A stretch of DNA of 64,000 bases from the NCBI RefSeq assembly GCF_011046735.1, contig NZ_CP049258.1, positions 5,722,001-5,786,000 of the forward strand. Direction: 5' to 3'. Source of the stretch: Nordella sp. HKS 07 (lineage in GTDB: Bacteria > Pseudomonadota > Alphaproteobacteria > Rhizobiales > Aestuariivirgaceae). The position numbers and the translations under genes are program-made. Positions 22,430 to 45,444 of this stretch are shown here, in pieces (within the stretch, counting starts at the first letter, position 1; each line of letters begins with the position of its first letter). The notes beneath the pieces were generated by a model. It ran no database searches. It was not told where the DNA came from and saw only the letters and a list, made by a program, of their open reading frames with translations.

Positions 22430-22516
22430 ATCAATTGGGTATTAGGTTCCGGTGCGGGCACCGGCGGACGTCTGGTGCGCTGCTCGTACCCATGTTGCTC
22501 AATGGAGGATATGGCT
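22430..22516 (+). promoter_or_regulatory. ROSE-type RNA thermometer of hsp20
   Basis: The leader of the hsp20 gene ends with GCTCGTACCCATGTTGCTC, a loop AATG, then GAGGATATGGCTATG. This has the layout of the Bradyrhizobium ROSE element: a TTGCT anti-ribosome-site segment facing GGAGGAT, with the characteristic G.G and U.U mismatches, closed by CCAT/ATGG. An upstream perfect hairpin CCGGTGC/GCACCGG (22449-22464) provides the 5' stem. Known ROSE RNAs melt at heat-shock temperature and expose the ribosome site, so the gene should be translated mainly when warm. Confidence 0.88.
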
Positions 22517-22960
22517 ATGCGCAACTACGACCTATCGACTTTCTCGCGTTCGAGCGTGGGCTTTGAACCCTTTTTCAGTCTTCTGAGCGGCGCTCACAAC
22601 CGCCTCGAGTCAGAGGGAAATTTTCCTCCCTATGACATCATTCGGAAAGACGAGACGAATTATGTTATCCGCCTCGCTGTCGCGGGCTTCGCCCCGCGCG
22701 ACATCAATATCACTACTCAGCAAAACCTCTTGACCGTTGCTGGCCGGAAAGAGCCGGAGCAGGGGCACCACTACCTGCATGAAGGTATCACGAGCAACGA
22801 TTTCGAGCGTCAGTTCAGCCTGGCCGACAAAGGCGAAGTGACGAATGCCAATTATGAGAACGGTATTCTCGAAATTGAGCTGCATAAGGAGATCCCTGAG
22901 GCAGCGAAGCCGCGCAAAATCTCCATAAAAGGGGGCGGCGCACACAAGCTCCTTTCGTGA
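22517..22960 (+). CDS. Small heat-shock protein, IbpA-type Hsp20
   Basis: The 147-residue protein begins MRNYDLSTFSRSSVGFEPFF, the class A rhizobial sHsp start, and has the alpha-crystallin domain (YDIIRKDETNYVIRLAVAGF; LTVAGRKEPEQG; ANYENGILEIELHKEIPE). ATG 22517 is eight bases after GGAGG and is the start expected from the ROSE leader; in-frame ATGs at 22502 and 22511 lie in the thermometer hairpin. It should act as a cytoplasmic holdase under heat. Unlike the pair at 3482-4324, which has an FNR-type box, it is under thermal translational control. A 109-residue gene follows 9 bp later. Confidence 0.95.
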   Translation: MRNYDLSTFSRSSVGFEPFFSLLSGAHNRLESEGNFPPYDIIRKDETNYVIRLAVAGFAPRDINITTQQNLLTVAGRKEPEQGHHYLHEGITSNDFERQFSLADKGEVTNANYENGILEIELHKEIPEAAKPRKISIKGGGAHKLLS

Positions 22961-29831: not shown

Positions 29832-30093
29832 TGGCCGACGTCGCCACGCGGGATAGGGCGGCGAGCATGATGGCCAACGGCACGGTATCACCAGGCGGGC
29901 GGCGAAAGAGATCCGCGTCTGGCTGCCGTATCGAGGCCGTAAGTTTTCCTTTAGCCAGGAGCAGGATTCGCAGCGCGAGTTACTGGCGGCGTTTCGGCGA
30001 AAAATCGGGCCTAACCCGGTCGCCGCCCCGTGCAATTATGAGCCTTCACAATTCTGTTCCGGCATCTAGGCTCAACAGGGATGGAGGCAACCA

Positions 30094-30537
30094 ATGAGAG
30101 TTTTGCTAGTCGCCGCCCTTCTGTGCAGCACATGGTCGCCTTTGGCGCTCGCTGAGGACGAGCCCACAACATACATCTGCAAGACGGACCAAACGACGGG
30201 CTTTTCATACAAGAACGGCGTCTGGAAACCGCAGAATGAATGGAAGCAATCGACGTTTGTCCTCCAGTACATGGGGGGCATGCCCGAAAAGTCGTATTGG
30301 GTTCTCACAAGGCTCGGATTCCCTCTTGCGTTGGCTGATTGTGATGACAGCTATCTCGACTCATCCAAAAAAAAGCGGGTGCGGGGCCCCCTTATCAGCT
30401 GCACCGGCATCTCGGAGATGGAGATGAACACAACGACGCGGGCATTCATCTACTCGAACATCCAAAACTTTGTGGATGATTTCGATCAGGAAAATACAAC
30501 GCCAACACTCAGCACAGGCAAGTGCTCGCCATTCTGA
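30094..30537 (+). CDS. Secreted hypothetical protein
   Basis: A 147-residue protein with a clear signal peptide (MRVLLVAALLCSTWSPLALA, cleaved before EDEP) and a mature domain with four cysteines: YICKTDQTTGFSYKNGVWKP, ALADCDDSYLD, LISCTGISEMEMNT and the last TGKCSPF. Two disulphides are likely, so it should be periplasmic. ATG 30094 follows GGGATGGAGG. The lysine run SSKKKR in the middle is unusual for a secreted protein. No function is recognised. Confidence 0.7.
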   Translation: MRVLLVAALLCSTWSPLALAEDEPTTYICKTDQTTGFSYKNGVWKPQNEWKQSTFVLQYMGGMPEKSYWVLTRLGFPLALADCDDSYLDSSKKKRVRGPLISCTGISEMEMNTTTRAFIYSNIQNFVDDFDQENTTPTLSTGKCSPF

Positions 30538-30649
30538 TCTTGCAATAATCCATTCGGGAGCCTCGCCAATTGGTAAAGTTGGGAAAAAGGGTACCATCCC
30601 ACAATGCACATGGCGTCGAGCGGTTCACCATGGGAGCTGTGAAAAAGAC

Positions 30650-32088: not shown

Positions 32089-32470
32089 GCCGCGAGGGCG
32101 CGCGGGGGGCCGGTGGTCCCCACATCCTGCATCCGTGCGGTGGCACTTCGCATCCGAGCCAACTCAGACTGATGTGAGTGATGCGAAAATGTCACTCAAG
32201 ACAGAACGTTAAGCAAGGAATTTGCGCGCACTTAACGCGGCGTGCGGATTCCCGCTAGGGTGGTGGTGTCTGCCTCGCCAATGCCCGCGGAGGGGCCGAC
32301 AACCCCGCCCTGGCTGCACTAGCCTTGGCGGAAGATCCGCACCTTCACCGTCGCCGCCAATCGCGACCGAGAGTGGCGGCGAAAGGTTGGCTGTCCGAAT
32401 CGCGGGAATTTGGTTACTGTTGAATTGCCGGCGAGGAATTTGCCCCATTCTCCGGCAAGCTTCACATCGA

Positions 32471-32506
32471 AGCCCCGTCGATGCCTCCCTTGGCGGCGGG
32501 GCTTTT
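32471..32506 (+). terminator. Intrinsic terminator without an upstream gene
   Basis: AGCCCCG (32471-32477) and CGGGGCT pair, followed by TTT. The nearest upstream plus-strand gene ends at 32088, 380 bp before, and the stretch between shows no supported gene, so a non-coding transcript may end here. Confidence 0.65.
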
Positions 32507-32545
32507 CTATTTGCGGTCCCTTGCCCATTTCAGAGGTTAAGTTCC

Positions 32546-32866
32546 ATGGCCGATACCACCCCGTTTGAGTACAGCCTTAAATCCTATCAAAAGGTGCTCG
32601 ATGATGTTGACCAACCCAAATTCATGGACATCGTGACGAAGGGCAGCGCGACCGTCGAGCAGTTGCTTGATCGGGTGCTTGGCTTCGCTCATGTTCGCCG
32701 CTGGGCACCTCAACATTTGCTCGATCACTGCTTCGTCGCGCACTACCTGCTAGGCAATAACCTCGCCATAACCGGTTACCCGGGGAATGATCCAGTGCCG
32801 CCTTCGCTCGACCGCTTTCTTCGCGTCTTTAGAATTCTCGCGATCACCTATCGCGCCACCAATTAA
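32546..32866 (+). CDS. Hypothetical protein
   Basis: The 106-residue protein from ATG 32546 (AGAGGTTAA upstream) is mostly helical: EYSLKSYQKVLDDVDQPKFM, ATVEQLLDRVLGFAHVRRWA and SLDRFLRVFRILAITYRATN. There is no signal peptide or metal motif. The open frame goes back to 32222 through a terminator and has no support there. I do not know the family. It is convergent with the broken secreted gene at 32896. Confidence 0.5.
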   Translation: MADTTPFEYSLKSYQKVLDDVDQPKFMDIVTKGSATVEQLLDRVLGFAHVRRWAPQHLLDHCFVAHYLLGNNLAITGYPGNDPVPPSLDRFLRVFRILAITYRATN

Positions 32867-32895
32867 AAGTTGTTTGGGCCGAGAGCTTTTGCCAT

Positions 32896-33354
32896 CTACC
32901 GCTTGAGCGCTTGCAGGTCTGCGTAATTGCATGTCGCAGCTTTGGGAACGTCTGCCCCGGCTTCTAAATCTTTGCGGATCGCTTCGAGCGCCGCCTCGAG
33001 CTCGGCCTCGCGGTCGTCTTTCTCTGTCGCTATGTGTCAGGCGTGGCCTTATCTTCAATCCGACTTCTTGATCGAGCAAGGGCCAGAGCTTTTTTTGGCA
33101 TTGGCTTATTGCAGACGCCTCTGCTTCCGCTTTGGACGGATAACCCCAGGCCATGCCGCAGGCAATTCCCGAAACTCCGCCAGAACTCGGGTTCGTTACC
33201 GCGAAAGCCCTATGCTTCGGTTTCGTCTGAAATTGCATTCTTTGTGCCAATGCGGAATTTGTAGCGCCAAGCCAAGGTCGAAAGGAAGAGCAACGTGCAA
33301 AAGAATGATGCTTGCGCTAAGTGCAGCGTCAATCGTCCGGCGTCTCGTTTGCAT
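32896..33354 (-). pseudogene. Secreted hypothetical protein, several frameshifts
   Basis: ATG 33354 opens a signal-like region (AALSASIILLHVALPF). In the next frame an ALAQ-type cleavage site is followed by KHRAFAVTNPSSGGVSGIAC and WGYPSKAEAEASAISQCQKK, which resembles small secreted proteins with DUF4189-like GYS/A-CK patterns. A run of seven A's near 33091-33097 marks another shift. A third frame holds REAELEAALEAIRKDLEAGA and ends at 32896-32898. At least two frame changes make it a broken gene of about 150 residues. Confidence 0.5.
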
Positions 33355-33513: not shown

Positions 33514-33771
33514 TCAGGTCGACTGCCCAAGGTGATCGAGATAGCCGAGCAGCGAATCAACCGTGAACTTGCTGATCTTGCCGGATTTGAGGTCGGACAT
33601 GCGCGACTGATCGACGCCAAGTTTCTTGGCAGCCTCGTTCTGGGTCCAGCCTTTTCTATTGAGCTCCTCCTGCACCTTCATCAGAAGAAGCGACCGACGC
33701 TCCATCGCCATTGCTTCGATGGGATCATCATAGAGTGCGTTCCAGACGCTCCCATGAGTGATGTATGACAT
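33514..33771 (-). CDS. XRE-family regulator, paralogue of 14269 gene
   Basis: An 85-residue helix-turn-helix protein (RKGWTQNEAAKKLGVDQSRM followed by SDLKSGKISKFTVDSLLGYL) of the HTH_37/HigA-like type. ATG 33771 is chosen because the homologue at 14526 starts at the same place; an upstream ATG at 33807 is open. About 110 bp of its leader is shared with the other copy. It lies just downstream of the intact integrase in the same direction, so it probably controls that element. No toxin gene is adjacent. Confidence 0.82.
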   Translation of the reverse strand: MSYITHGSVWNALYDDPIEAMAMERRSLLLMKVQEELNRKGWTQNEAAKKLGVDQSRMSDLKSGKISKFTVDSLLGYLDHLGQST

Positions 33772-33972
33772 GGTTGAAGCCTTTCTCGATCTGGCTACGT
33801 GAGCCATTGTCCCCTACATGCGTCTTGCCCATATTGATACGTTTTTTTGGCATGGGTTATCATTTCGTCGACCAAAAGTAGCAAGTGAGGCAAAGAACTT
33901 AGTCTAGCTTCTCAGCCTACTATTAGACGTTTCAGAAAGTGGCTCTATTAGTATGTTAGTCGCTAGCAGGAC

Positions 33973-35652
33973 TCACAGGGGGAAGCCGTCGAAGTGAACC
34001 TTCTCCAAGGCGTCCTTCATAGCCTCAATTGCTGAATCGTGAATATAGGTTGCGCCCGACGATGAATCATCATGACCGGTGATATCATCGCTGATGGAGC
34101 GGGGAACGCCGGCCCTGGAAAGCGCGGTCTTGAGGGTATGCCGGAAGCTATGAAATTTTTTCCGGGCATCATCGACCCCGACTGTTTTCTTGTAGGTCCG
34201 GAGGAACCACCGGGGAATAAACTGAGAGTAGGGTTGTTTTTCGATCTTCCCCGCAGCCTTGGCGCGGGCCAGTTGATCCTGGCCTTGCCCATACCACCCA
34301 GGAAACAGGTGCGTCTCGCCGGCTTTCCTCAGCTGAGCTATCCGCTTTGCGAGCCCCAAGCGGACCAAAATGCTATGAACCGGCACAATCCGGAGAGACT
34401 GGCCGTTCTTTGTCTCCTCCTCGATCGCAAATGCCAGGATCTGGCGTTCATGCCGAACGCTATCGAGTTTGATCTGGGCAATCTCACTTGCCCGCATGCC
34501 GGAAAACAGCGCAATCAACAACGCCCATTGGCGTTCCGTAGTGAGCCTGTCCTTCCTAAACTCGGGAGGGGCGAAGATCCGGCTGAGATCGCCGGGCGTG
34601 AACGGAACGCGACTAGGCCGGTTCTCGCCTTTCTTTCTAGCGACTTTAACGCCGCTCGCCGGGTTGTCTGGGATCACCGCGTTGTCGACGGACCATTTAA
34701 GGACGGTATGAACGCGCGGGAGCCATTTCTCATTGATCGTGGTGACGTTCAGAGTTGGGAAGGGGACTGTTCGCGCCTCATTCTGAGCGATCGCGTCGGG
34801 CAATTTTGTACCAGGGAAGCGCTTTGTGTAGTTGGATGGAGTCTTTAGCAGGGCATCCTTGAAGCCGAGAACGTCCAGCCGTGTAATTTTATAGATGGGC
34901 TTCGCCTCTCCCAGGTGCTCCTCGAACATGCGGACGGCCGTCTCATACTCATAGTTGGTCGCGGACTTTGCGCCTTTCTCCTGGGTGACAAGGTCGACAA
35001 TATCGCTAAGGGGCTTCGTGCTGTTCGGGCCGATTTTCCTTGCGCGGATCGCGGCGGACGCATGATCAGGCTCGTCTATGAGCAAGGGGTGCTCCGGCTT
35101 AGCTGAAAAGTCGCCGTCGTCGCGGGCGGCCGTGATCCGCACATGCTCTAGTTCAGCAATGGCGAGTGTCCGGGCAAGTTCTCGCCATTCGGGCGTATTT
35201 TCGACTACGCCTGTATGGGCCTTGGCTTGAAAGGTTTGCACGATCCAGCCGACAGTCTCACCAAGTTCGGCATTGGAAGCGGTGCCGGCGATAGCTCTAC
35301 GGAGCGCCGCAACGTAGCTGTCATCTATGCCGACCGACGCATATGCGCTGTTTGAGTTTCGGAAGGCCTCATCAAGGCCGGTCTGTTCGTCAAAGTGAGC
35401 CCGAGCCATCTGGCGCGGGGTGAGGGGCCTCCCCGCTGGCGCGGGCCTTTTCACCCAAGCACGCGCCTCATCCAGGCGCGCCTGCATGCCGGCGACAGCA
35501 GCCGGCAATCTCCGGAGTGCAGTCCGCCTATCGCCGCCCAGGGGCTCTAGAAGCTCACGCTTACCGACAATCGGCCTAAGGGCTTCCGGAACCCCCAGCC
35601 TCGCAAAATGCCGCCCATCGCGAACAAGTAGATATCGAACCTTTGCCGCCAT
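33973..35652 (-). CDS. Tyrosine-recombinase integrase
   Basis: The 559-residue protein starts MAAKVRYLLVRDGRHFARLG with the DUF6538-like N-terminal domain (residues 1-60). A SAM-like core-binding region follows, and then the catalytic domain has all parts: SGMRASEIAQIKL (Arg I), HSFRHTLKTAL (His-x-x-Arg), DDITGHDDSSSGATYIHDS with the final His and the Tyr nucleophile. It should catalyse site-specific insertion or excision. Start 35652 is preceded by GGTGGCAGGA; the open frame to 35721 has no support. A tRNA-like 3' end lies 114 bp upstream (35766-35788), the normal place for an attachment site. Confidence 0.9.
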   Translation of the reverse strand: MAAKVRYLLVRDGRHFARLGVPEALRPIVGKRELLEPLGGDRRTALRRLPAAVAGMQARLDEARAWVKRPAPAGRPLTPRQMARAHFDEQTGLDEAFRNSNSAYASVGIDDSYVAALRRAIAGTASNAELGETVGWIVQTFQAKAHTGVVENTPEWRELARTLAIAELEHVRITAARDDGDFSAKPEHPLLIDEPDHASAAIRARKIGPNSTKPLSDIVDLVTQEKGAKSATNYEYETAVRMFEEHLGEAKPIYKITRLDVLGFKDALLKTPSNYTKRFPGTKLPDAIAQNEARTVPFPTLNVTTINEKWLPRVHTVLKWSVDNAVIPDNPASGVKVARKKGENRPSRVPFTPGDLSRIFAPPEFRKDRLTTERQWALLIALFSGMRASEIAQIKLDSVRHERQILAFAIEEETKNGQSLRIVPVHSILVRLGLAKRIAQLRKAGETHLFPGWYGQGQDQLARAKAAGKIEKQPYSQFIPRWFLRTYKKTVGVDDARKKFHSFRHTLKTALSRAGVPRSISDDITGHDDSSSGATYIHDSAIEAMKDALEKVHFDGFPL

Positions 35653-35765
35653 TCCTGCCACCGTCAGACATTTTAATTTTGTAGCAGATTTTGTAGCAGA
35701 GAAGTGGAAATAAGAAAGCAAAAAGAATAACTTGTATAAAAATCAGCGCCTTATATATGAGCGGC

Positions 35766-36087: not shown

Positions 36088-37221
36088 TCAATCATGCTTC
36101 CAGAGCCGGCGTAGCCGACGAACGCCACGACGGTGATATCCGGTAGACCAAATGTTCGCCGCGAGATGCTCGCGCTCCTCGCGCAGCCTGAAGAGCTTGT
36201 CGATCCTGGTCCATCCGAACCAGACAAGCCGGCGTAGCCGGCCATTCTCATCCAGCTGTTCCAGCCCTAAGAGCGCGCGCGTTTCCAGGTTATCGATCAA
36301 GCCGCCGTCTCGCGGGCGAGCGACATAGTCGGGAAAGAGACGGGCAGCGAGACCAAGCTGCGTCCACGCCCATCTCCTGACACCCTCGCTGGCGAAGCGA
36401 TCGAGCAACTGTCGCGTATGGTCCTGGTTGCGGCAAAGAAGGGCCGTCTCGAAGATACTGCGCAGGAGAAACATCCTGGATCGGGACAGATAGCGGTCGA
36501 AACGGTCATGTCCGATCAATTGCGCGAGCTGATCAACGATGTCCGGTATCCTTACCTGTGTGCCATCAAGGTCGACAAGCGTCGATCTCGCCTGCACACC
36601 TTCCGCGCCACACAACCCATGCCGGCTTGACAGGGGTTCGGAATGGATCTCGATCACCGCGGCATCACCGTCTCGTCTGAGCGGGGGTAGATGCTTATAC
36701 TGTGTCGACCATTCGGCGACGTTCTCCTGAAAGCCGTAGCCCAGAGAGCTCAGGCAAGCCACCGCTTCGGGCAGGCGGTCGCGAGGAATGAGCAGATCGA
36801 GATCGCGCATGAAGCGCCAACCGGGATCCGGGTAGAGGCCGTCGACCAGCCGAATGGCGCCCTTCAGGAGAACAGGTTGGATGCCGACTTCGTTGAGGCG
36901 GGCCGCGGCTTCAGCGAGCTGCAGGCGTAGCGTTTCGTTGCGACTACTGTTCTGGGCGTGCATGAACTCCAGATATGTCCTGAAGTCCTCGGGCAACAAC
37001 GGCCCGATCTCCGGGTCCGCGATACAGGCTGCAAGCATCGGCGTGACGAGATGGCGCCCGGCCAGTTGCGCGAAGCTGACGAGATCGGTTGCTGGGTTGA
37101 TCAGAGCCGCTGCTGTAGCGGTATCCAGGCGTCGCCCGCGCTGCCCGGCCGAGAGACACGCACAAAGGAGGTCCAGCGGCCGGAGATCGCGATGGGGCGC
37201 CAAGCCGCGGCCCGGGCTCAA
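36088..37221 (-). CDS. Nucleotidyltransferase family protein (NTP_transf_5 type)
   Basis: A 377-residue protein with the minimal nucleotidyltransferase core: LLKGAIRLVDGLYPDPGWRF followed by MRDLDLLIPRDRLPEAVACL. The Asp140-x-Asp142 pair is the likely metal site and LKG (119-121) the expected first motif. Such proteins recur beside HPr-kinase-like and PqqD-like proteins in bacterial peptide-modification gene sets, including some lasso-peptide clusters. Its start overlaps the stop of the PqqD-HPrK gene by four bases (ATGA), so the two are translationally coupled. It might nucleotidylate the modified peptide or a small molecule; the reaction is unknown. Confidence 0.82.
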   Translation of the reverse strand: MSPGRGLAPHRDLRPLDLLCACLSAGQRGRRLDTATAAALINPATDLVSFAQLAGRHLVTPMLAACIADPEIGPLLPEDFRTYLEFMHAQNSSRNETLRLQLAEAAARLNEVGIQPVLLKGAIRLVDGLYPDPGWRFMRDLDLLIPRDRLPEAVACLSSLGYGFQENVAEWSTQYKHLPPLRRDGDAAVIEIHSEPLSSRHGLCGAEGVQARSTLVDLDGTQVRIPDIVDQLAQLIGHDRFDRYLSRSRMFLLRSIFETALLCRNQDHTRQLLDRFASEGVRRWAWTQLGLAARLFPDYVARPRDGGLIDNLETRALLGLEQLDENGRLRRLVWFGWTRIDKLFRLREEREHLAANIWSTGYHRRGVRRLRRLWKHD

Positions 37222-38423
37222 TGCTCAGGCCCGAACACAGGCGGTGGGACAGCAGCCGCCAGTTCGTCGTGGGACTGGTGAATCGTATCCCAGAGGGAGC
37301 GTACTACGCGAACCGCGTCGTCCAAGCGGCCGTAGGAAATCTCGTAGGCCGCAAGCCCGCGCCACCAGGCGAGGAATTCGGCAAGCCCAGCGTCGGTGGA
37401 GGGCAGTATGCTGCCTCCCTCTCCCAGCAAGGTGAGGGAGCGAAGGTGATCAAGCCGGGTCAGCTTGACCGGCGTACCCTTCACATAGCGCGGAAATAGG
37501 ACTGCGGCTGCCGGACGACCGGCCGCATCAGCTGAAGCGGTACCGTTCCTGGGCCAAAGGAAGCGCATCCTCCGAGCGCCGAGGCGGACGGCCGGCGCCT
37601 CGGCGAGTTCCGGAAACATAGCCCCGATGACGGGCCAGCTGCCCTGCTTGATGCTGATCGCCAGCGGCACAGGCCGAATGAGCCTGGTACCCTTCTCAAG
37701 CGGCACGATATCGTCGGCGACGAACCCGAAGCCCGCGTGGAGCAGACTTGCCAGCAGAGTGCTCTTGCCGGCACCGCTGTCGCCGCAGACCAGCAGACAT
37801 CCCGTCGGAGTCGCCACAGCACCGGCGTGCAGCAAAGCAAGCCAGGAGCGCCGGCTTCCAGCCGAAACGAGCTGCCGGACCACAGCCCATCGCGCCACGG
37901 GTGCCGTGGCCAAACGGTCAATGACGCGGCCGTCGCGCGCAAGTACAAACGCGCCGCGATCGCGGTATAGGGTCAGGCAAACCTCGGGGGCAGTTCCATC
38001 AGTGACGATTGCGGGAGCGGCAAGGGGGGCGAATGCGGCGGCAACGTTGGCAGAATGGCAGACCACTCTGACCACGACCTCGCCGACCCGGTACGCAGCA
38101 TCAAGTGCCGGCGATTCTTGTGGCGGGTCGGCCACGACGACGTCCAGATCAGTTGTCGCGCGTGGTCTGAGAAGTCCCGCTTCGTGCACCGCGGCAATAA
38201 ACGCCTCAAGGTCGCGCTGAACCGCAGCCGCATCGCTTCCATGCTCCCGCGCGAGATCAGAAACGATCGCCGCCTCGCGACCGCCCTCTCGCAGCAATAC
38301 CCACGCGCGCGCGGCAGTATGGTTCAAGTGAAACAATCTGCCCGTCAGTGCCTCGTAGATCACAGCCCCGTCACAGTACGGTGCAGTAGCGATCCGGTCG
38401 GGCTGATCGACAAAGCCGTGCAT
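37218..38423 (-). CDS. PqqD-like / HPr-kinase-like fusion protein
   Basis: The 401-residue protein joins two domains. Residues 14-86 form a PqqD-type winged helix (YEALTGRLFHLNHTAARAWV; VQRDLEAFIAAVHEAGLL), the domain that binds leader peptides of ribosomal peptide precursors. Residues 195-400 form an HPr-kinase-like domain with the P-loop GDSGAGKS (214-221) and VADDIVPL (Asp237/238). HPrK-like kinases without a PTS occur with PqqD proteins in peptide-modification systems (the HPr-rel-A type arrangement) and as lasso-peptide kinases. A PqqD-kinase fusion in one chain suggests that the leader is recognised and the core phosphorylated by the same protein. The Gly-rich peptide gene ends 21 bp upstream. 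Confidence 0.85.
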   Translation of the reverse strand: MHGFVDQPDRIATAPYCDGAVIYEALTGRLFHLNHTAARAWVLLREGGREAAIVSDLAREHGSDAAAVQRDLEAFIAAVHEAGLLRPRATTDLDVVVADPPQESPALDAAYRVGEVVVRVVCHSANVAAAFAPLAAPAIVTDGTAPEVCLTLYRDRGAFVLARDGRVIDRLATAPVARWAVVRQLVSAGSRRSWLALLHAGAVATPTGCLLVCGDSGAGKSTLLASLLHAGFGFVADDIVPLEKGTRLIRPVPLAISIKQGSWPVIGAMFPELAEAPAVRLGARRMRFLWPRNGTASADAAGRPAAAVLFPRYVKGTPVKLTRLDHLRSLTLLGEGGSILPSTDAGLAEFLAWWRGLAAYEISYGRLDDAVRVVRSLWDTIHQSHDELAAAVPPPVFGPEH

Positions 38424-38444
38424 ATCTCGCGAGAACGCCTCGTG

Positions 38445-38723
38445 TCAGGGCTTCTTGTTCTGACCGGGCGGACCAGTATGCGTGTGGTTCTTGTCGCCAA
38501 AGCCATTCCCCGGCTTCGTGCCGCCGCCGCCGCCGCCTCCACCGCCACCGCCACCGCCATAACCGGCCTGCGCCCGCTTGGGCTGGGCTAGCAAGGCTAA
38601 CGCTGGTGCTGCGTATGCGAAGCGCCCGATCTTTTTCAGTACGGCGCGGCGTGCCACTTCGTGGCCATCACCGGACTCTTGCTGCGGGGGCGCGTGGTCT
38701 TCATCTCTGCGGGAGGTACTCAT
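38445..38723 (-). CDS. Gly-rich exported peptide, likely substrate of the operon
   Basis: A 92-residue protein. Residues 1-24 are acidic and polar. Then comes a twin-arginine-like signal (RRAVLKKIGRFAYAAPALAL, from residue 25) and AQA at 51-53 as possible cleavage site. The rest is GYG, a run of 13 glycines (56-68) and a tail of 24 residues with KPGNGFGDKNHTHTGPPGQN. The tail holds two Thr, two His and several Lys/Asn as possible modification points. It is the first gene of the three-gene operon, with the PqqD-HPrK fusion 21 bp later. By position it is the obvious substrate, though an ordinary structural Gly-rich protein is the alternative. Confidence 0.65.
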   Translation of the reverse strand: MSTSRRDEDHAPPQQESGDGHEVARRAVLKKIGRFAYAAPALALLAQPKRAQAGYGGGGGGGGGGGGGTKPGNGFGDKNHTHTGPPGQNKKP

Positions 38724-39250
38724 ATTTGCCCTCTTACTTCGCTATTTTTACGAAGAATTGCCTCATAATCTGGGGCAAATGCATTGAGCTATCAATATAT
38801 CGAACGATTTAGTCGTTCCGTTGGAAAAAGCGGAAATAAATCAGATGCTTGATCGCAGGCAAGCCGAGCCGCGGAAGTTTTTGGCTGTATCCAGCCAGGA
38901 AGACCGACACCGCAATGTGGTTCTTCCCGCTGTCTTATTTCCCGACCAGGTGCTTATGAATCAAGTCAAAAGGTAAGTTGTCGCCTTGAGGTCACATTGG
39001 TCCAAGCTCATCCCGGCTGGGATGCCGCTGCCGTTCCAGCTCGTCGCGGGCTGAGCAGGCCTAATGCTGTCTCACAAGAAGTGCTCTTCAGTTTGTTTGA
39101 ATAGCAAAACGTCTTGGGAAGGCAAAGCCGCATCGCAATGTTCAGATCCAACTAGTCGACTGCTCCGCGGACGCGACGTCTGTTCGCACGCCGGGGAGCG
39201 CCAGCTCGCGATCGTGGAGCTGCTTCAGCCACGATCGCGTCGGCTCGGAA
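38724..39250. other. Leader region of the peptide operon
   Basis: About 530 bases without a gene. The first 100 bases upstream of the peptide start are AT-rich (38740-38850) and probably contain the promoter. The rest holds no supported frame or strong repeat. Confidence 0.4.
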
Positions 39251-40088
39251 CTATTTGCCCGCAAGAAGCGCGTCGAGCGCGGCCTTGGTTTCCGCACTGA
39301 CGGGCGTCTTGTTGGCGGCCGCATTGAGAGCATCCGTCTCGGCTTGACTGGCCTCTTGGGCCGCCGCCAATGCTGCCTGCGCGGCAGGATCGGCCGCCAC
39401 CGCATCGGCTTTGGCTTGTTCTTCGGCAGATTGCGCGTCCGCAGCGATATTCGTCGCGTCTTCTACGGCCTGCTCCGCAGCGGCGATGGCCGCCGGCGTT
39501 GCGGCTGGGTCAGCCTTGAGATCGGCGAGCGTCTGCTGCGCAGCTGCCAGGTTCGCGTCGGCCTGGTCCGACGCGGCGATAGCTGCCTGCGCGCCCGGAC
39601 TTGCCGCTATCGCGGCAGCGACGGCCGCCGCTGCAGCTTTCTCTGCTTGCGTCGCCGCCTCAGCCGCCGCCTTGTAGGCCGCGATCTTGCCGACTCGCGA
39701 ATTGGGGGGATGCGTTGGCCAGGGCCGTGGGAGATGCATGGGCCGCATTCAGCGCGCCAAGCTGGCTTGAGATATTGCCCTTACCCTTGGTCTTTGCTTT
39801 GTTCGTCGAACCGCTTTGCAGTGAGGCGCTCTTGCTATGGCCGACTGCCTTCCCTTGAGCGCCCGCGGACTTGCCCTGACTGCCATTGCCGCCATTGCCG
39901 CCATTGCCATTACCGGCGCCGCCATTCCCCTTGCCCCCGCCGTTGCCCTTGCCGCCACCATTACCGCCCTTGGCGGCATAGGCCTGGTCATAGGAAACCA
40001 GTTTGCCGGCATTGAACAATGAAGGCGCAGCGACGAGCAGGGTGGTCAGTGAAACAACGAGCAATGCATGGCGTGATTTCAGTTTCAT
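39251..40088 (-). pseudogene. Secreted Gly-rich/Ala-rich protein, frameshift in a G6 run
   Basis: From ATG 40088 the frame has a signal segment (HALLVVSLTTLLVAAPSLFN), a KGNGGG-type Gly/Asn/Lys-rich region, and LGALNAAHASPTALANA, at which point the frame is lost. In the other frame the protein continues as PNSRVGKIAAYKAAAEAATQ and a long Ala-rich coiled coil to LDALLAGK at 39251. The shift lies in a run of six G's (39704-39709 on +). The repaired protein has about 278 residues and follows a known rhizobial layout of a Gly-rich head and Ala-rich helical tail. A homopolymer error or phase-variable tract are both possible. Confidence 0.7.
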
Positions 40089-43035: not shown

Positions 43036-43374
43036 GCAAGGTCGTCCGCTGGATGGGCTGGTACAGGCCGCGATAGCGCTGACGAATTTCAAAAACTGAG
43101 TCGAGCGGACGATGGTCTAGAGCATCGGACCGAAAAGTGCGAAGCGGTTTTCGGATAATCCGATGCGCAATTCGAAGAGTTAGAGCGTCGGACCGATTCT
43201 ATGTGAGCGTCCGGCGCTCTAAGGGATGCTGGGGAGGACTTGACTGCTTCATGGCCGTCCTGGTGCAAAATGACGACGATCTTCATGACTTGCCCGCCCT
43301 TGTCGACGATGAAGCGATAGTTCCGCTGGATGGCAACGAGCGGGTGCAAGACGCGAGTCATTGTTCGACCTGTG
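43036..43374. other. Non-coding region with palindromic repeat
   Basis: Between xfp and tkt stops. It contains the RPE-like repeat at 43116-43220. A minus-strand frame at 43230-43340 (MTRVLHPLVAIQRNYRFIVD with MKIVVILHQDGHEAV) might be a fragment of a gene, but it is short and has no support. Confidence 0.4.
43116..43220. repeat. Rhizobial palindromic intergenic repeat
   Basis: Two adjoining hairpins. The first has GCATCGGA (43122-43129) with TCCGATGC (43159-43166) and inner CCGAAAA/TTTTCGG. The second has AGAGCGTCGGAC (43182-43193) with GTCCGGCGCTCT (43209-43220), one mismatch. The core CGGACCGAAAAGTG is a widespread intergenic repeat in Rhizobiales. It lies between two converging genes and could help terminate both. 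Confidence 0.8.
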
Positions 43375-45444
43375 TTAGGTGACGTCCTCTTGCTTCGAGA
43401 GCTGATCTTTGGCAGCAGCAACGACGTTCTCAACCGTGAACCCGAATTCCTGCTGCAACGCCTTGAGTGGCGCGGAGGCACCAAATGTGTGCATTCCGAT
43501 CGTGTGGCCTTGGCGGCCGACATAGCGCTCCCAGCCAAAGGTGGATGCCTGCTCGATTGCTACGCGGCTCCGCACATGAGGGGGCAGCACGCTATGGCGA
43601 TAGGCCTCCGATTGCCGTTCATACAGATCCCACGATGGCATCGATACGACACGCGAGTGAATGCCTTCGGCGACGAGGGCGGTGTGCGCCTGCACGGCAA
43701 GACTCAACTCACTGCCGCTGGCGATGAGGATGACTTCGGGCTTGCCCCCGGCAGCATCAGCGAGAACATAAGCGCCGAGCGCGACACGATCCGATTGTGA
43801 GGCTTCCCCTCTATCGAGGGTCGGAAGTGGTTGGCGCGACAAGGCGAGCACAGCTGGTCTGTGTTTGAGCTGCATGATGCAGCGATAGGCTTCGACAACT
43901 TCGTTGGCGTCACCAGGCCTGATCAAGGTAAGGCCGGGAACTGCGCGCAACGATGCGAGCTGTTCGATCGGCTGGTGCGTGGGCCCATCCTCGCCGTCAC
44001 CCATCGCGTCATGCGTCAAGACGAAAATCGTAGGCAGCTCCATCAAAGCGGAGAGCCGGATCGCCGGCCGCGCGTAGTCGCTGAAAATGAAGAATGTGGC
44101 GCCGAACGGCCGCAGCTTGGAGAGGGAAAGTCCATTCAGCATGGCACCCATTGCGTGTTCTCGAATCCCGAAATGTAGGTTTTTTCCGCCCGGACTGTTC
44201 GCCTGGAAATCACCGGCACCGTCATACTTTAGCGTGGTTTTGTTCGAAGGGCCTAGATCTGCTGAACCGCCTAGAAACCACGGGATATTCTGGGCAAGAA
44301 CATTGAGCACCTGGCCCGAGGCGTCGCGGCCAGCAATACCCTTCGGATCGACGTCGAAGTGCGGAAGATTACGATCCCAGCCGGCGGGGAGTTCGCGTCG
44401 CTGCATCTGGTCGATCTCGGCCGCGAGCCCAGGGTACTTCGATTTATAGGCGGAAAAGACCTCATCCCACTGGCGGTGTCGCTGACCTCCGCGCGCTCCC
44501 ACACCCTCCGCAAAGTGCTCGACAACACCGTCAGGAACTAGAAATTTCGCATCTTCTGGCCAACCATAGGCACGCTTGGTGAGGCGGATCTCGTCTTCGC
44601 CCAGCGGCTCTCCGTGCGCTGCGGCAGTATCCTGGCGGTGTGGGGAGCCATAGCCGATATGGCTGTCGAGGATGATAAGGGTGGGGCGGCCTTTTGTCTG
44701 TCAGAATACCCGCAACGCATTCTCGATACCATCAATATCGTTGGCGTCGCCGACGCGCAGGACGTTCCAGTGATAACCGAGGAATCGTGCCGCGATGTCT
44801 TCGGTGAAGGCGATACTCGTGTTTCCTTCGATGGTGATGTGGTTGTTGTCATAGATCCAGCACAGGTTGTCCAGACCGAGATGGCCGGCTAGCGACGCGG
44901 CTTCCGACCCGACTCCTTCCATCAAGCAACCGTCGCCGCATACGCCATAGATGTCGTAGTCAAATATCTCAAAGCCCGTTTGATTGTAGCGGCTGGCGAG
45001 CCAGCGGCGGGCGATCGCCATGCCGACGCTCGTTGCGATTCCTTGTCCCAAGGGACCGGTCGTCGCCTCGACGCCCGAGACCAAGTGGTACTCAGGGTGA
45101 CCAGGCGCCTTGCTGCCCAATTGCCGGAAGCGGCGAATATCTTCGAGTGTCACCGCCGGCCGTCCCAGTTTCTCATAGTCAGCATTGACGGCCTGAACCT
45201 GAGCGAGATGCAGTACTGACCAAAGAAGCATCGACGCGTGACCGTTGGAAAGGATGAATCTGTCGCGGTTGGGCCAGATCGGATCCTTCGGATCGAAGCG
45301 CATCACCCGGTTCCAGAGTGTGTAGACAAGCGGAGCAAGCGCCATTGGCGTGCCCGGATGGCCGGAATTGGCGGCCTGCACCGCGTCGATCGACAGGGTG
45401 CGAATGGTGTTGATCGATAGTTGATCCAATTGCTCGGTGGTCAT
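43375..45444 (-). pseudogene. tkt: Transketolase with an in-frame TGA
   Basis: Both parts are in one frame and together give a full-length transketolase of about 689 codons. The N-terminal part has IDAVQAANSGHPGTPMALAP and the ThDP motif GDGCLMEGVGSEAASLAGHL, with YDNNHITIEG. The C-terminal part has FGIREHAMGAMLNGLSLSKL and DYARPAIRLSAL. A single TGA at 44701-44703 follows ENALRVF, where the family normally continues into TKGRPTLI. A CGA-to-TGA change would explain it. Transketolase moves two-carbon units between pentose and triose phosphates. It is the last gene of the operon. Unless the stop is read through or is an error, no full protein is made. Confidence 0.85.

Follow-up and report, generated by a model that had tools for sequence, protein, structure and literature searches.

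Nordella sp. HKS 07 encodes what is probably a peptide-tagging system of the RiPP (ribosomally synthesised and post-translationally modified peptide) type, located in a stretch of 64,000 nucleotides (contig NZ_CP049258.1, positions 5,722,001 to 5,786,000; hereafter the window). The system comprises three minus-strand open reading frames (ORFs), which in order of transcription encode a small peptide, a fusion of a PqqD-family RiPP recognition element (RRE) with an HPr kinase-like (HPrK-like) domain, and a nucleotidyltransferase (NT). By analogy, it is best read as a linear phospho-RiPP pathway like that of the linear polyphosphorylated peptides (LPPs; LppA/K/B/N/S/D), which were reported from Bacillota in May 2026 and combine an RRE, an HprK-like kinase and a nucleoside triphosphate (NTP) transferase (PMC13381572). 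The gene sets, their conservation, the co-occurrence of their members and the co-variation of RRE and leader are established, and the peptide belongs with the kinase.

Conserved leaders and divergent cores

Four copies of the peptide are present in the genome: the window copy, a pair at 6.62 Mb and a single copy at 1.19 Mb. Their leaders read RRAVLxxIxRFAYAAPALALLAQPKRAQA, and their cores are divergent. Over the stretch from the double arginine (RR) to AQA, comparison of the window copy with copy P2 shows changes at 10 of 24.7 synonymous sites and at 0 of the 62.3 non-synonymous ones, and the six paralogue pairs give non-synonymous divergence (dN) of 0 to 0.05 with synonymous divergence (dS) of 0.13 to 0.60. 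Because this leader is common to four paralogues, with far fewer non-synonymous than synonymous changes, and also to relatives, the three-gene set noticed in a preliminary description of the window is real and more than a chance arrangement.

A conserved leader with a divergent core, as in RiPP precursors, is seen in the four paralogues and in 70 distinct peptides of the fused-kinase family. These 70 are what remains of 82 hits of a peptide hidden Markov model (HMM) once the 5 hits at four loci on duplicated contigs, one hit lacking RR, two rows with identical sequence, one row cut by a contig end and three rows belonging to unfused loci are removed. In all 70, a residue followed by xxP stands 12-13 positions past the first Arg of RR; this residue is Val in 40, Ile in 11, Ala in 11, Leu in four and Tyr in four, and the four Tyr-type leaders are the four copies of this genome. 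Two residues after the AxA site, Ser is found in 61 of the 70 (scored if any A-x-[AVT], at least 24 positions past RR, has Ser two after) and Tyr in four, all from this genome; among the five others, four have a nearby Ser at another spacing and one is masked. The window peptide itself has no Pfam or NCBIfam match at E<=0.1, and ten members of the peptide alignment A2 gave weak hits only (best PF02738, 0.0083; TIGR01409, 0.013; TIGR04117, 0.014).

Cores across the family are of several kinds, including NNG[WFY]GNGxxDGxPG, His-rich, TPT-rich and Cys-rich types, the last at L185, where three family precursors with Cys-rich cores stand in tandem (L185:1136-2047, minus strand, genome G083). The tail type of the window, [ST][RK]PGxG[FW]GDxNHxHxGPPG, is common to the precursors at L092, L100, L113 and L116. 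Judged by conservation, the residue two after AxA would be the first candidate site of modification and the tail [ST][RK]PG the second, a ranking that moves the modification away from the tail, where it had been placed initially. The 13 glycines first counted are an uninterrupted run, although the peptide as a whole holds 22.

The fusion kinase and the nucleotidyltransferase

The PqqD part of the fusion exceeds its Pfam cut-off (PF05402, E 1.9e-11), and among NCBIfam models it scores best with NF033530 (lasso-peptide PqqD), at 45.1 of 70 bits. The HPrK domain is recognisable as first described, yet it scores under the curated cut-offs (PF07475, 22.9 of 33.3 bits; TIGR04352, HprK_rel_A, 74.9 of 200 bits). 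PEPCK and HprK have one shared fold. An AlphaFold2 model of the fusion (40 sequences) has a mean predicted local distance difference test (pLDDT) score of 89.9; its RRE part resembles TbiB1 bound to leader (5v1u), and the remainder matches structures of PEPCK (best E 3.3e-6) and HprK (best E 3.2e-4). A leader-binding type of RRE domain is thus present, with a modelled fold like that of the lasso leader-binding B1 protein TbiB1; this agrees with the initial assignment of the PqqD part as leader-binding, and binding is predicted.

Active-site residues of kinase and NT are invariant among the relatives compared, in line with the preliminary interpretation. In the kinase, H199, G217, G219, K220, L227, D237, K259 and R280 are identical in all 40 aligned fusion proteins (the window protein and 39 of 47 distinct fused ORFs, near-duplicates and one cut piece being excluded), and the P-loop reads as intact. 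The window protein shares 22-31% identity with seven fused homologues to which it was aligned. In the NT, K120, D140 and D142 are identical in 35/35 sequences, namely the window protein and 34 taken from a list of 46 NT ORFs (two from unfused loci). The NT, initially called minimal, spans positions 3-249 of the 249 of PF14907, which makes that adjective inapt; Pfam supports this domain as it does the PqqD domain. Its structure model (pLDDT 82.3) has an NTase-type fold and lies nearest to nucleotidyltransferase-like proteins and ANT(2'')-Ia (best E 5e-3, none reaching E 1e-3). A very weak match of the model to FKRP (E 0.37) is a lead only.

In a kinase tree, the fused state needs four changes, with a weak backbone that is still compatible with a single origin, and the window protein groups with that of L052 (support 89/0). 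The genome has one fused kinase; the second match is a 1080-amino acid protein (G000:C1:2334146 region; L168:3576-6818, minus strand) whose N-terminal part is HPrK-like and which also carries family-2 glycosyltransferase domains, and there are similar hits within long open frames in three of the four other genomes of the genus.

Co-occurrence across genomes

A class-wide protein search covered 385 genomes, scoring four candidates per genome for the kinase and 13 for the peptide. The peptide HMM was matched in 14 genomes at E<=1e-5, and the fused kinase was found in ten (G000, which is the window genome, G083, G091, G190, G237, G317, G352, G365, G374 and G387; the G374 kinase is in two contig-end pieces, and that of G352 has an incomplete N-terminus). 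Nine of these ten also have the peptide (weakly in G083, 1.9e-7), against five of the 375 others. The Fisher p of this co-occurrence, 4e-14 (1e-12 without the window genome), is an indication rather than a true probability because the genomes are related and few candidates were scored per genome. The peptide accompanies an unfused HprK_rel_A over the cut-off in G011 and G097 and a split kinase, PqqD and NT in G126, and G298, outside the fused-kinase genomes, has a weak peptide hit. Within the taxonomic family, one of 69 genomes combines strong peptide hits (E<=1e-10) with a fused kinase, and five others have weak peptide hits, the best at 3.9e-5.

At a larger scale, contigs of one genome for each of 84,980 species were scanned with alignment A3, made from the peptides of five relatives; the scan reports relatives of A3-type leaders, so that window-like leaders will be missed. 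It returned 54 peptide loci, of which 32 have a fused kinase and an NT within 6 kb, one has a piece of the kinase at a contig end and 21 have none, five of the 21 being near a contig end. Since loci L125-L127, among the 32, supplied four of the five query peptides, the independent count is 29/51. All 16 genomes holding the 21 kinase-less loci encode a full-length fused kinase elsewhere, which indicates that precursors can be unlinked; the genome search was given 19 of the 21 loci, and the remaining two, L104 and L128, come from records whose prefixes match those of L098 and L120. Named records belong to Sinorhizobium/Ensifer, Bradyrhizobium, Mesorhizobium, Azospirillum, Afipia, Tardiphaga, Microvirga, Reyranella, Vineibacter, Dongia and Tistlia; the remainder are metagenome-assembled genomes labelled as alphaproteobacteria or orders and families thereof, with one 'Bacterium' (L092). 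On pSymB of Sinorhizobium meliloti Ak57, HMMs identify fused kinase, NT and precursor in the same order as genes annotated 'serine kinase', 'nucleotidyltransferase family protein' and 'hypothetical protein'; the kinase gene of Ak57 is LZK74_19180, and strain 4H41 carries the locus too.

As background, none of the 986 ORFs in L025-L051, 27 loci that surround weak HPrK-like hits, was matched by the iterated peptide HMM, and the window peptide had no match in plasmids by tblastn with the low-complexity filter on. Ten loci with an unfused kinase were also considered (seven over the TIGR04352 cut-off and three from outside that sample); precursors, chosen by eye among pattern matches, were picked at six of them. 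The HMM pointed to four, whereas those at L068 and L070 came from a regular expression alone; the six have Ser (four) or Thr (two) at the second position after AxA. The preliminary description had named, as evidence against itself, kinase/NT pairs that lack a conserved peptide gene; the neighbourhood comparison left it standing because a conserved peptide accompanies the PqqD-HPrK/NT pair.

Clustering of 733 ORFs of 90 amino acids or more from 60 neighbourhoods, including the window, found just three families that recur widely: the NT in 33 loci, the fused kinase in 28 and the peptide in 20. Genes for dTDP-rhamnose recur in 6 to 9 loci, mostly in Bradyrhizobium, and at L096 rmlA, rmlB, rmlC and rmlD pass NCBIfam cut-offs. 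Six Bradyrhizobium loci (L093, L095, L096, L101, L103 and L105) have rml genes near kinase/NT, and five of the six also carry a second, Gly-rich precursor on the opposite strand. No peptidase, cyclase or exporter was recognised in the 30 most recurrent neighbour clusters, mostly judged by eye, nor by Pfam among the 21 proteins at 25.2-51.5 kb of the window.

Co-variation of RRE and leader

In the solved LPP complex, D70 of LppB hydrogen-bonds the leader Tyr and F74 packs against the Pro (PMC13381572). The spacing-matched equivalents in the window RRE are D71 and F75, which align with the Asp and Phe of the TbiB1 leader pocket. Among the 40 fusion proteins, Asp at position 71 is found in the window protein alone and Phe at 75 in the window and L052 only; position 79 is Trp in 31 and Val in the window. 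Among those compared, the sole RRE with the putative Tyr-binding Asp (1/40) therefore belongs to the sole genome with Tyr leaders (4/70 peptides), which would fit direct binding of the YxxPxL segment by the RRE.

Proposed pathway and alternatives

The pathway that we infer extends to binding, chemistry, order of steps, export, use of the tyrosine and any role at the cell surface. The peptide would be a precursor: a variable core preceded by a leader that combines a twin-arginine RRxxL with a segment of the YxxPxL type and an AxA site like those cut by signal peptidase. The RRE may grip the YxxPxL segment and hold the peptide against the fused HPrK-like kinase, which would phosphorylate a hydroxyl just past AxA (Ser in relatives, Tyr55 here, with Thr69 as an alternative). 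The NT could then build on the phosphorylated residue, attaching a nucleotidyl group or one of glycosyl type. Export of the product may rely on the general twin-arginine translocation (Tat) machinery and signal peptidase, which would account for the lack of any recognised dedicated protease or exporter in the loci. One kinase/NT pair might serve several unlinked precursors. From the preliminary interpretation, the conserved peptide partner, the RRE of leader-binding type, the intact active sites and the exclusion of a lasso are retained, and the wholly new product and the tail site are not. A bolder version, to which we give limited credence, would make these an unnamed, widespread group of alphaproteobacterial linear, Tat-exported phospho(glyco)peptides, with one RRE-kinase/NT for scattered precursors and a kinase that has here turned into a tyrosine kinase acting on Tyr55.

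Several points weigh against this pathway. Tyr55 is a doubtful acceptor because LppK left the S3T and S3Y variants of its substrate unphosphorylated (PMC13381572), which suggests that the window kinase has changed specificity, that Thr69 is the site or that the window copy is not phosphorylated. In addition, the LPP NTP transferase was without effect in a heterologous host (PMC13381572). The aromatic residue of the published motif occurs in only 4/70 leaders, the link between D71 and Tyr comes from one lineage with residues matched by spacing and alignment, and the modified peptide is so far only predicted. With the Tat model TIGR01409, one of ten members gives a weak match and the window peptide none. 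In the genome comparison, G118 has a clear peptide and no fused kinase was found there, G317 has a fused kinase with only a peptide start severed by a contig end, no precursor was accepted in the scan at four of the ten unfused loci (L061, L066, L067 and L069), and absences are not exhaustive given the few candidates scored per genome.

The lack of a TIGR01409 match also bears on a different reading of the leader, as a tag for the RRE only, in which RRxxL would serve recognition rather than Tat and the peptide would stay cytoplasmic or leave by an unlinked exporter. The segment from RR to AxA is conserved beyond what we would generally expect of a signal peptide alone, and published LPPs use an MsbA-like exporter and an SpI peptidase (PMC13381572). 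However, a candidate Tat motif (RRxFLK, h-region and AxA) is seen, RRxFL with a hydrophobic stretch and AxA recurs through the family, and no exporter or peptidase was recognised among the recurrent neighbours or the 21 window proteins; the genome also encodes TatC. We consider this alternative rather unlikely.

Less probable still is that the kinase/NT modifies another molecule, such as a sugar or polysaccharide precursor, with the peptide as a small secreted partner or regulator. The rml genes beside several Bradyrhizobium loci, the HPrK-like long open frames in this genome (joined here to glycosyltransferase domains) and in three others of the genus, and the surroundings of the window operon, rich in sugar-metabolism genes, are consistent with such a role. 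RRE domains nevertheless bind leader peptides in solved homologues, RRE and leader co-vary, and genomes with unlinked precursors still encode the kinase, all of which argue for the peptide as substrate. Finally, an ordinary exported small protein hitch-hiking beside the operon with no functional link might suit a Gly-rich, low-complexity core, a phage-type integrase next door and the fact that twin-arginine leaders are common, but it is rejected as highly improbable on the co-occurrence, and adjacency repeated in differing orders and strands and the presence of the core GDxNHxHxGPPG also in distant genera speak against it too.

Layout of the locus and its surroundings

Re-reading of the ORF coordinates (Table 1) confirmed the initial placement of the three genes and the 21-bp gap between peptide and kinase; the overlap of kinase and NT, first given as ATGA, is TTGA, in which the TTG start of the NT overlaps the TGA stop of the kinase. 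The region upstream of the peptide is part of a longer similarity, window 38519-38818 being 84% identical to G000:C1:1187265-1187564 in this genome.

Table 1. Features of the three-gene operon, with positions in the window.
Feature	Position	Strand	Basis or remark
Precursor peptide gene	38445..38723	-	92 amino acids; family of 54 public loci; 4 copies in genome
Conserved leader RRAVLKKIGRFAYAAPALALLAQPKRAQA, residues 25-53	38565..38651	-	0 to 3 residue differences among 4 paralogues
YAAPAL, residues 37-42	38598..38615	-	Fits [Y/W]xxPx[L/V/I/F/A] RRE-binding motif (PMC13381572)
Tyr55, two residues past AQA, candidate acceptor	38559..38561	-	Ser in relatives
Run of 13 Gly	38520..38558	-	Residue count
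24-residue core tail TKPGNGFGDKNHTHTGPPGQNKKP	38448..38519	-	G[FW]GDxNHxHxGPPG also in L092, L100, L113, L116 precursors
RRE (PqqD)-HPrK fusion kinase	37218..38423	-	401 amino acids; Pfam/NCBIfam, alignment, structure model
RRE domain, residues 11-86, with Asp71 and Phe75	38166..38393	-	TbiB1-leader complex 5v1u, template modelling (TM) score 0.81-0.84 by target
HPrK-like kinase domain, residues 194-382	37278..37844	-	8 residues invariant in 40/40; PEPCK/HprK fold
P-loop GDSGAGKST, residues 214-222	37758..37784	-	Reading and alignment
PF14907 nucleotidyltransferase	36088..37221	-	377 amino acids; PF14907 E 1.5e-32
Shine-Dalgarno-like AGAGGG ahead of peptide ATG	38729..38734	-	Read from sequence
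Upstream region common to window and 1.19 Mb paralogue	38724..38818	-	DNA comparison

A phage-type tyrosine integrase (33973-35721, minus strand) and a helix-turn-helix protein (33514-33807, minus strand) adjoin the operon, and G003 has DNA that matches the integrase region at 77% identity. Synteny against four congeners aligned separate pieces only (the integrase in G003, flanks elsewhere), so that neither island borders nor an empty site emerged. At 39251-40088 (minus strand) lie two low-complexity genes, encoding a Gly/Asn-rich product of 142 amino acids and an Ala-rich one of 165; they resemble sequence in G002 and G003, where no fused kinase was found. The 21 proteins at 25.2-51.5 kb include a glycosyltransferase and enzymes for glycogen debranching, phosphoketolase, transketolase, G6PD and transaldolase. 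The transketolase (43375-45444, minus strand) is split into an N-terminal domain (44701-45444) and C-terminal domains (43375-44502).

A dispersed repeat of ~105 bp at 43117-43223 has at least 32 further copies in the genome (88-97% identity) and is also found in all four other genomes of the genus; it folds as two strong hairpins (z -4.7, plus strand) and matches no Rfam family at the gathering threshold. Further off, a ROSE RNA thermometer (RF00435, 22426-22523, plus strand; 52.4 bits against a gathering threshold of 45) lies where an ORF for a small heat-shock protein begins (22475-22960; IbpA-like under the cut-off). Segments 30000-30539 and 32341-32964 have copies elsewhere in the genome that are 96% and 90% identical (624 kb and 4.99 Mb, respectively).

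Significance

RRE/HPrK/nucleotidyltransferase sets such as that of S. meliloti Ak57 carry generic annotation only, and the peptide family supplies them with a candidate substrate. Soil and plant-associated bacteria of other kinds repeatedly hold sets like this one, and the peptides seem to be without a name. The linear phospho-RiPP logic, described as exclusive to Bacillota in the LPP account, would be extended to Gram-negative soil and symbiotic bacteria. These hosts can be grown and knocked out, and it becomes possible to test directly which residue is the acceptor and what the PF14907 enzyme does.

Comparison with known systems

LPPs are the closest counterpart. Both systems have an RRE, an HprK-like kinase and an NTP transferase, a linear precursor with a conserved leader, a variable C-terminus and a [Y/W]xxPx[V/L]-type motif, and a candidate hydroxyl just past a signal-peptidase-type site; the LPP kinase phosphorylates core Ser3, and SpI cleaves just before it (PMC13381572). 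The product type, first proposed to be new, is accordingly not wholly so, because LPPs have already been reported in Bacillota, to which their authors called them restricted (PMC13381572). The window system differs in that its RRE is fused to the kinase, whereas the LPP RRE is a discrete protein, and in its alphaproteobacterial host, twin-arginine leader and unlinked precursors. No SpI-like peptidase or MsbA-like exporter was seen among the 21 window proteins (by Pfam) or the 30 neighbour clusters (by eye). Of the LPP leader YxxPxVLxHQxIxFETxxS, the window leader has only the YxxPx[L] part, and where LPPs have Ser near the core N-terminus the window has Tyr. What is new relative to the published LPPs is thus the fusion, the phylum, the leader type, the unseen peptidase and exporter and the unlinked precursors. 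Titles and abstract openings of the open-licence literature searched held no description of the set or its precursors outside Bacillota.

The named HPr-rel-A system (TIGR04352/TIGR04353) likewise has an HPrK-related kinase, a PqqD-family domain and an adjacent PF14907-type NT, which we take to be a member of that system, and 6/10 unfused loci have a nearby RR...PxV...AxA precursor. The window protein scores 74.9 of 200 bits with TIGR04352 and 29.9 of 35 with TIGR04353, and its domains are fused. As for SynChlorMet ScmC/ScmD, eight and four of the 40 fusion proteins match TIGR04249 and TIGR04248 at E<=1e-3, and the window protein matches neither at that threshold.

Phosphorylated lasso peptides (paeninodin; pseudomycoidin, with PsmK/PsmN) also apply an HprK-like kinase and a nucleotidyltransferase to a RiPP. 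In pseudomycoidin, PsmK acts first and PsmN is then needed for hexose on the phospho-Ser, according to a review (PMC9266682). Lasso topology, which the preliminary description had excluded, is rejected here as well, since the leader peptidase PF13471 has 0 matches in the whole genome and a linear product is expected; an asparagine-synthetase-like cyclase was seen neither in the 21 window proteins nor among recognised recurrent neighbours, and no genome-wide search for it was made. The lasso B1 RREs TbiB1 and TfuB1 share the fold of the window RRE, with 34-35% identity to TbiB1 over about 80 columns, and differ from it in that the window RRE is fused to a kinase.

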